Of a stretch of DNA of 64,000 bases, positions 55,361-59,937 are shown piece by piece. Source of the stretch: an uncultured Pseudodesulfovibrio sp. (GTDB lineage Bacteria > Desulfobacterota > Desulfovibrionia > Desulfovibrionales > Desulfovibrionaceae); contig NZ_OY782498.1 in the NCBI RefSeq assembly GCF_963677845.1, positions 2,921,518 to 2,985,517 on the forward strand, written 5' to 3'. The stretch's first letter is position 1. Every line of letters begins with the position of its first letter. The position numbers were made by a program, and so were the translations under genes. The notes below the pieces were generated by a model. The model worked only from the letters and a program-made list of their open reading frames with translations, had not been told where the DNA came from and did not search any database.

Positions 55361-56095
55361 TTATAATAAATACTTGGCCCGAATACGAGCAACCGTGCCA
55401 TTCTCCATAAGTCGCTGAAGGGCTCTTTTAATTTCCTTAACCAAGCTCAAGGGAGCCTTTCGGGAAACGTACACCGTGACTGGAGCCTGTGAAACAACCA
55501 ATGGCTTCGCAAAAACCACCTGCGGCAATTTGTTCTCATTCATCGTATATATAAGTCCCAACCGAGGACCGAGGACCGCATCGACACGCCCCCCCATCAA
55601 CATTTTGAGGCATTGTAAATACGTTTTGGCAGGACAGGGGATTACTCCATTTTCCTTGGAGATACGAGCATCATACCGGGCACCTCGAATGGAGGCGACC
55701 TTTTTACCCACAAGATCTTCCAAAGAGAAGTACTCTTTACCAGCCATGCTGATAACTATCGACTCTTCATGAAACAACAGGCCCATATTTATACCTACAG
55801 CTTCGGCTTCTGGCGAAGCGAGCAGAATAAACATATCAGCCCGACCCATTTTCATCTCTTCAAACCCGCGATGCAGACGGCCTTCAATATTTTTCGCGAC
55901 CAGCCCGGCCTCTTCTGCTATTGCGTTCCCGATGTCACCGCAAAGGCCTATGGTTTTGCCTTCGTCCTGATACCAGTATGGCGGCAAATCAAACGTCACA
56001 ATGCGCAAATCCTTCGCCTGCGCAACGGAAATGAGCAAAAATGAAGCGCTAAAAAAGAAATAAAGAAAACTTTTTTTCAACAGAGGATTTTCCAC
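55361..56095 (-). CDS. Periplasmic amino-acid-type substrate-binding protein (family 3)
   Basis: A 244-residue solute receptor. The GTG start at 56095 is chosen because AAAGGG lies six bases upstream and the resulting N-terminus is a clean signal peptide (VENPLLKKSFLYFFFS). The mature protein has DLRIVTFDLPPYWYQDEGK and the bacterial SBP-3 pattern (MKMGRADMFILLASPEAEAVG, VASIRGARYDARI). It lacks a partner permease and lies directly upstream of a sensor kinase, so it may deliver ligand to that kinase. Confidence 0.87.
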   Translation of the reverse strand: MENPLLKKSFLYFFFSASFLLISVAQAKDLRIVTFDLPPYWYQDEGKTIGLCGDIGNAIAEEAGLVAKNIEGRLHRGFEEMKMGRADMFILLASPEAEAVGINMGLLFHEESIVISMAGKEYFSLEDLVGKKVASIRGARYDARISKENGVIPCPAKTYLQCLKMLMGGRVDAVLGPRLGLIYTMNENKLPQVVFAKPLVVSQAPVTVYVSRKAPLSLVKEIKRALQRLMENGTVARIRAKYLL

Positions 56096-56208
56096 ATCAA
56101 ACCCTTTTTTGTTGGCAGTATCACATAACAAGCATTTCCTCTGTTATAAAGAAATGCAAATCGATCTTGCCATCTCTCCCCCCCTCAATTAGTTACGAGC
56201 CAATCGAC

Positions 56209-59446: not shown

Positions 59447-59474
59447 CTCAAATCAAAGATTGATTTATTCCAAA

Positions 59475-59510
59475 GAGGCCTCGGTCAAGTGACCGGGGCC
59501 TCGTTTTTTG
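59475..59510 (+). terminator. Rho-independent terminator of ald
   Basis: GAGGCCTCGGTC-aagt-GACCGGGGCCTC hairpin followed by GTTTTTT. Confidence 0.9.
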
Positions 59511-59555
59511 CAGTTTGCAACAGGCTCGGATATGGTCCACTGACAAGGAGCACGC

Positions 59556-59903
59556 ATGCAAAAAGACATTCTCTTCACTCTGCCCGCCAGTTTTATGAAC
59601 GGTATGGACGGCCCGTTGTTCTGACCGGAATGCGCGATCCTGGAAGGATTGCTCGGCTACTTTCCCCAGTTGCGGGAAGACCTTGATATCAGACCTATCG
59701 AATTCCAACGTCCCAGAGCCGCAATCATCACATTTCTCGGCAAAGAACATCAGGGGTGCCCCTGCCTGATTCTGGCCGATCCGACCAAAGCGGAAGGGTT
59801 GCCTGTCCAACAATACGAACAGTACTCCTTTCTCGACGATCACAAGGCCATCATAGAATATCTGGCCCGCAACCACGGCATCAGCCGTCCGTCGCACGAC
59901 TGA
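59556..59903 (+). CDS. Probable selenoprotein, DUF3088-like, UxxC redox motif
   Basis: One 116-codon frame interrupted only by TGA at 59622-59624 (codon 23). Upstream: MQKDILFTLPASFMNGMDGP. Downstream, the same frame continues PECAILEGLLGYFPQL ... RPIEFQRPRAAIITFLGKEH ... CPCLILADPTKAEG and ends at TGA 59901. The pattern matches the DUF3088 family, in which the TGA position is the first Cys of a CxxC motif (F-x-C-x-x-C-A-x-x-E-G); here it reads F-U-P-E-C-A-I-L-E-G. AAGGAG lies five bases before the ATG. A SECIS-like hairpin begins 9 bases after the TGA. Selenocysteine insertion fits best. A disrupted pseudogene is the alternative, but no other damage is seen. Not in an operon; converges with the transglycosylase gene. 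Confidence 0.75.
59625..59655 (+). promoter_or_regulatory. SECIS-like hairpin downstream of TGA
   Basis: GCGATCC (59634-59640) pairs with GGATTGC (59646-59652), seven pairs with one G-T wobble, around the loop TGGAA. The loop begins 17 bases after the TGA and its second base is G, as in the bacterial SECIS consensus (loop 16-37 nt downstream with a G in the first two positions). Confidence 0.6.
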
Positions 59904-59937
59904 CAAAAGTCATCACACGTGGCGAAGGTCAAACGGC

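Follow-up and report, generated by a model that had tools for sequence, protein, structure and literature searches.

Whether an in-frame UGA is a stop or a selenocysteine (Sec) codon is the question raised by a small gene in a 64,000-nucleotide (nt) stretch of DNA from an uncultured Pseudodesulfovibrio sp. (assembly GCF_963677845.1, contig NZ_OY782498.1, positions 2,921,518 to 2,985,517 of the forward strand), hereafter called the window. The gene encodes a protein of the DUF3088 family (PF11287) and is interrupted at codon 23; an earlier inspection of the letters alone (the sequence-only reading) had proposed that it encodes a selenoprotein. We consider it very likely that the UGA at 59622–59624 is decoded as Sec, which would give a predicted 115-residue DUF3088 protein acting as a small U-P-E-C thiol/selenol oxidoreductase. 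Sec is the likely residue at this codon because the UGA replaces a conserved Cys and because the hairpin that follows it is kept in six of the seven UGA-containing relatives and in none of the four Cys-containing ones.

The sequence and its translation confirmed that a single frame runs from the ATG at 59556 to the terminal TGA at 59901–59903 and that its sole internal stop is the TGA of codon 23. When the UGA is read as Cys, the 115-residue read-through product matches the PF11287 profile with an E-value of 1.8e-31 and 108.8 bits (gathering cut-off, 26.4) over profile positions 1–111 of 112, which bears out the DUF3088 assignment. The UGA, which had been placed at the first Cys of a CxxC motif, aligns with a column of invariant Cys. 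This column was examined in a 121-row alignment comprising five UGA rows, with UGA written as Cys, and 116 full-length database proteins, which were among the 120 listed of 853 matches; the other four listed were left out as incomplete proteins. P69 is likewise invariant in this alignment. In a different list of matches, a C-P motif is present in 82 of the 90 full-length homologues checked, and 14 of these 82 carry Ser, Asn, or Thr in place of the second Cys. Given that the Cys column is invariant while the second Cys varies, the recoded residue is, judging from the alignment, the one that the aligned DUF3088 family keeps.

A DUF3088 homologue is present in 11 of 36 genomes of the genus Pseudodesulfovibrio. 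Codon 23 is TGA in seven of them (genomes G000, G204, G203, G104, G211, G210, and G171) and TGC or TGT in four (G201, G192, G128, and G116), and no second internal stop occurs in the matched stretch of any of the 11. The comparison through the TGA that the sequence-only reading had called for therefore revealed alternation between Cys and UGA codons within the genus, with Cys in the aligned wider family. The ratio of nonsynonymous to synonymous differences (pN/pS), calculated pairwise for the six of the 11 genus genes that align without gaps, was below 1 on each side of the UGA where computable (14/15 pairs before and 15/15 after it). DUF3088 is otherwise rare among relatives: in genome samples that overlap one another, it occurs in 6 of the 199 family genomes and in 10 of the 247 order genomes, all within this genus, and in two of the 395 phylum genomes, including the window's own. 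In the class of genome G469, 6 of 257 genomes contain DUF3088, and all six copies are free of internal stops.

The hairpin claimed earlier, with a 7-bp stem (GCGATCC and GGATTGC) and a TGGAA loop, is present 9 nt past the UGA. Its 5-nt loop lies 16 nt from the UGA; pairing of U59641 with A59645, if formed, would extend the stem to 8 bp and leave a GGA triloop at 17 nt. The limits for a bacterial selenocysteine insertion sequence (bSECIS), as given in a 2026 review (PMC13188914), are a hairpin 16–37 nt after the UGA, a G in the first two loop positions, and a folding free energy (dG) of -7.5 or lower. Scored against these published limits with our own implementation, the window hairpin passes (-9.1 kcal/mol, 17 nt, loop GGA), as do six of the seven UGA copies and none of the four Cys copies of the genus. 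In six distinct UGA rows (G203 was left out, being identical to G204 in this stretch), 95.2% of the stem cells are paired, with a two-sided change in three of the seven pairs, and sliding the stem partners lowers the pairing to 26–45%. Among 500 shuffles, 8 matched the UGA rows in pairing percentage, 5 in covariation score, and 26 in two-sided pairs; for the number of further pair types, 378 reached the UGA-row value. The four Cys rows are 57.1% paired, no better than shuffles. Because the hairpin stretch is coding, we also generated 5000 synonymous recodings per gene of the 10 codons that follow the UGA. The hairpin was stabler than nearly all of these recodings in the six intact UGA genes (P = 0.0014–0.0064), less clearly so in G171 (P = 0.07), and not so in the four Cys genes (P = 0.22–0.61). 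The hairpin in the intact UGA genes is more stable than the coding sequence demands. With the exception of G171, UGA copies retain the hairpin, with changes that preserve pairing, and Cys copies lack it. An Rfam scan of the window gave no match, and a scan of genome contigs found no relative with the single sequence and four distant loci with an alignment.

The sel genes, whose absence had been named as a point that would tell against Sec, are all matched in the genome: selA, selB, selD, and tRNA-Sec (selC) each gave a match above the curated cut-off. selB and tRNA-Sec are above the cut-off in all 11 genomes with DUF3088, including the four with Cys copies. In addition, selD of the same genome has its own in-frame TGA followed by the hairpin CTCCAGG-GGA-CCTGGAG (L040:1528–1590), which has the GGA triloop in common with the DUF3088 hairpin. 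Taken together, the Cys/UGA alternation, the sel genes, and the hairpin support the selenoprotein reading, and three tests aimed at refuting it failed to do so.

Several observations weigh against decoding as Sec or against the proposed redox role, and two of them concern the hairpin. Hairpins within the bSECIS limits also follow 12 of the 192 Cys codons in the 43 long ORFs (open reading frames) of the window, so the window hairpin alone is weak evidence. When the fold includes 67 nt of context, the stability of the region does not exceed that of shuffles (z = -0.07), and it is therefore the local hairpin and its conservation that carry the case, not overall stability. The other observations are the grounds for four alternative explanations.

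The alternative that survives best accepts the selenoprotein but supposes that Sec has a role other than disulfide reduction, for example in handling metals or sulfur/selenium together with radical SAM and rhodanese proteins. It draws on a second locus, occupied in G210 (UGA) and in G192, G128, and G116 (Cys), where DUF3088 lies near a rhodanese/YceI two-domain gene in all four genomes (the domains were scanned in G210, G128, and G116, and the G192 gene is 63–66% identical to those). DUF3088 there adjoins a radical SAM/SPASM gene for a putative metalloenzyme maturase in G210, G192, and G128; the G192 copy belongs to TIGR04311 (578.9 bits, cut-off 400), with the G128 and G210 copies 66–67% identical. 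However, G116 has no radical SAM gene beside DUF3088, and the neighbors at the window's locus are an alanine dehydrogenase gene and an SLT/LysM transglycosylase-type gene; because these differ, the partnership is not general, and we regard this alternative as unlikely.

Far less probable is that the UGA is read in another way, for example by near-cognate readthrough with Trp or Cys. UGA is the terminal stop of 9 of the 43 long window ORFs, so simple reassignment of the codon was rejected, and the genome has the complete set of sel genes, including a selD that itself contains an in-frame TGA and a hairpin with a GGA loop. That the gene is a pseudogene or contains a sequencing error, with the UGA a true stop, might be suggested by the G171 copy (L022:1501–1812), the one UGA copy of seven that is broken, which retains the UGA with an N-terminal frameshift and a damaged hairpin as if decaying or misassembled, and by public entries of close relatives that begin past the UGA; yet the same codon is UGA in seven genomes of the genus at two loci, it aligns with an invariant Cys, and pN/pS values below 1 flank it in the six genes compared, all of which makes this explanation highly improbable. 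Equally hard to credit is translation into two products without Sec, namely a leader of the 22 residues up to the UGA and a shortened DUF3088 protein initiated further downstream. Databases do list fragments of about 84–89 aa (amino acids) starting past the UGA, but such a fragment would be without the invariant Cys/Sec position and the first strands of the predicted fold. The family alignment also extends through the codons upstream of the UGA, where pN/pS is low, and the hairpin is absent from Cys copies.

These database entries also bear on the suspicion that the gene is commonly misannotated, which holds for close relatives, whose public entries begin after the UGA. A search with a truncated profile gave 278 matches, and 116 of the 120 listed were placed on the query (P0025, P0027, P0040, and P0045, all 114–116 aa, were left out). 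Among these listed matches, 26 of the 116 placed proteins do not exceed 100 aa, and of these, 25 start at positions 28–57, past the UGA, including the window's own (P0003). Examples are the DUF3088 family proteins of P. nedwellii (88 aa) and Desulfovibrio sp. Fe33 (87 aa). Some short entries may be contig-end fragments. P0133, listed as MULTISPECIES, looks like a fragment of the G171 copy. Two further short proteins, the metagenomic entries P0185 and P0217, are only 34–41% identical to the window's and begin just past the UGA position; they may represent Sec proteins from other genera or simply be fragments.

The first locus has the gene order AsnC-type regulator, alanine dehydrogenase, DUF3088, SLT/LysM gene, and PhoH gene, which is common to G000, G204, G203, G104, and G211 (UGA) and to G201 (Cys); G171 (UGA) has only the upstream side. 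UGA and Cys copies thus occur together at both loci. A tree of 28 rows places six UGA rows together with four Cys rows in a single starred clade that excludes G210. The UGA/Cys label requires four changes on this tree, or three without the hairpin-coding columns; two are forced by starred branches with or without these columns. The approximately unbiased (AU) test rejected a single clade of UGA (Sec) copies whether the hairpin-coding columns were included or not (p = 0.0009 both times). As read from this tree, Sec and Cys are swapped at least twice within the genus, and one Sec gain with later returns to Cys would fit as well as separate gains.

The predicted fold of the DUF3088 protein is thioredoxin-like, of the glutathione S-transferase N-terminal (GST-N)/glutaredoxin type. 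A PDB sequence search returned weak matches only (best E-value 0.021, a zinc-finger protein). Among 13 DUF3088 members scanned, PF00462, PF00085, and PF13409 gave no match at E-values up to 10, although the HMMER filters drop most very weak matches and limit this negative for PF00462 and PF13409; two members matched Thioredoxin_9 weakly (best E-value 0.0019). The window protein resembles the PF11287 family in its full-length match, in P69, and in the position of the UGA at the invariant Cys, and differs from it in that all 116 aligned full-length proteins among the matches listed have Cys there. With bacterial Sec glutaredoxins and thioredoxins, listed as known selenoproteins in Table 1 of PMC13188914, it shares the UxxC motif and a small, here predicted, thioredoxin-type fold, but DUF3088 is a separate family without a PF00462 or PF00085 match in the 13 members. 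GST-like Sec proteins are also already listed among known selenoproteins. The Sargasso Sea GST-like selenoprotein (PF13409/COG0625) is likened here at the level of family: the predicted GST-N type fold is similar, whereas the 13 members have no PF13409 match. At 115 aa, the DUF3088 protein is too short for the GST C-terminal domain, and the N-terminal domains of dehydroascorbate reductase and CLIC1, eukaryotic proteins of 211–236 residues, are only 10–15% identical to it. A GSH-S_ATP search of the genome found only a RimK-family match, a result that covers this one synthase profile.

In the proposed mechanism, SelB carrying Sec-tRNA would bind the hairpin at 59634–59652, so that Sec would be incorporated at codon 23. 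Its selenolate, which the predicted thioredoxin-type fold puts just ahead of the first long helix, would then attack a disulfide or another electrophile to form an intermediate, to be resolved by C26 or by a second thiol.

The features of the two loci are collected in Table 1. Given the terminator-like hairpin between the two genes, the DUF3088 gene is probably transcribed alone, apart from the alanine dehydrogenase gene; a promoter scan found none near it. An antisense ORF of 152 codons (window 59448–59906, minus strand) spans the whole gene and has no sign of being a gene. Elsewhere in the window, a PF00497 solute-binding-protein-like gene (55361–56131, minus strand) lies between histidine kinase and NicO-type genes. 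It has no match at an E-value of 1e-8 in the G204/G203 stretch examined and is divergent (30–60% identity) in G104, G211, G171, and G201.

Table 1. Positions of features at the two DUF3088 loci (window coordinates unless an L number is given)
Feature	Position	Strand	Remark
DUF3088 gene, predicted Sec at codon 23	59556..59903	+	115 codons and TGA stop; PF11287 match on read-through
In-frame UGA, predicted Sec codon (U of U-P-E-C)	59622..59624	+	TGA/Cys alternation among genus homologues
Cys codon 26 of U-P-E-C, possible resolving Cys	59631..59633	+	Ser, Asn, or Thr in 14 of 82 homologues with a C-P motif
SECIS-like hairpin	59634..59652	+	Stem 59634–59640/59646–59652, loop 59641–59645 UGGAA; putative role
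Ribosome-binding-site-like AAGGAG hexamer	59545..59550	+	5 nt upstream of ATG; putative function
Terminator-like hairpin between alanine dehydrogenase and DUF3088 genes	59475..59502	+	12-pair stem and T tract; putative function
Second-locus stretch (UGA)	L050:4135-6905		
Second-locus stretch (Cys)	L053:4224-6940		TIGR04311 assigned for this copy
Second-locus stretch (Cys)	L054:4480-7244		
Second-locus stretch (Cys)	L055:5693-7176		Rhodanese/YceI gene alone, without radical SAM gene

The sequence-only reading knew of no report of DUF3088 as a selenoprotein family, and the literature and models that we searched do not name it as such. DUF3088 is absent from the accessible parts of Table 1 of PMC13188914, with its 119 families or subfamilies, and of the new-family table of the deep-Sep paper (PMC12013277). 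Among the NCBIfam models of June 2026, none matches the protein (best E-value 0.18, unrelated). In the full-text literature outside subscription papers, preprints, and supplements, selenocysteine is absent from the available main text on DUF3088, and a search for PF11287 returned no paper. DUF3088, with its predicted thiol-redox enzymes, would be new as a selenoprotein family. The fuller proposition, that it is a new selenoenzyme family of stand-alone GST-N-type selenol oxidoreductases that use a non-glutathione thiol and whose catalytic residue has changed between Sec and Cys two or more times in one genus, at two loci, is possible, if somewhat short of probable.

If true, the finding adds one more family to the prokaryotic selenoprotein catalogue, which numbered 119 in the 2026 review, and exposes an annotation error by which proteins of close relatives are stored from just past the active-site residue. 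It also hints strongly at a catalytic role for the conserved Cys of a domain of unknown function. If true, the switching at two loci gives a natural set of matched Sec and Cys enzymes, and because orthologues of both kinds occupy one locus within a single genus, the benefit that Sec brings to an enzyme can be tested.
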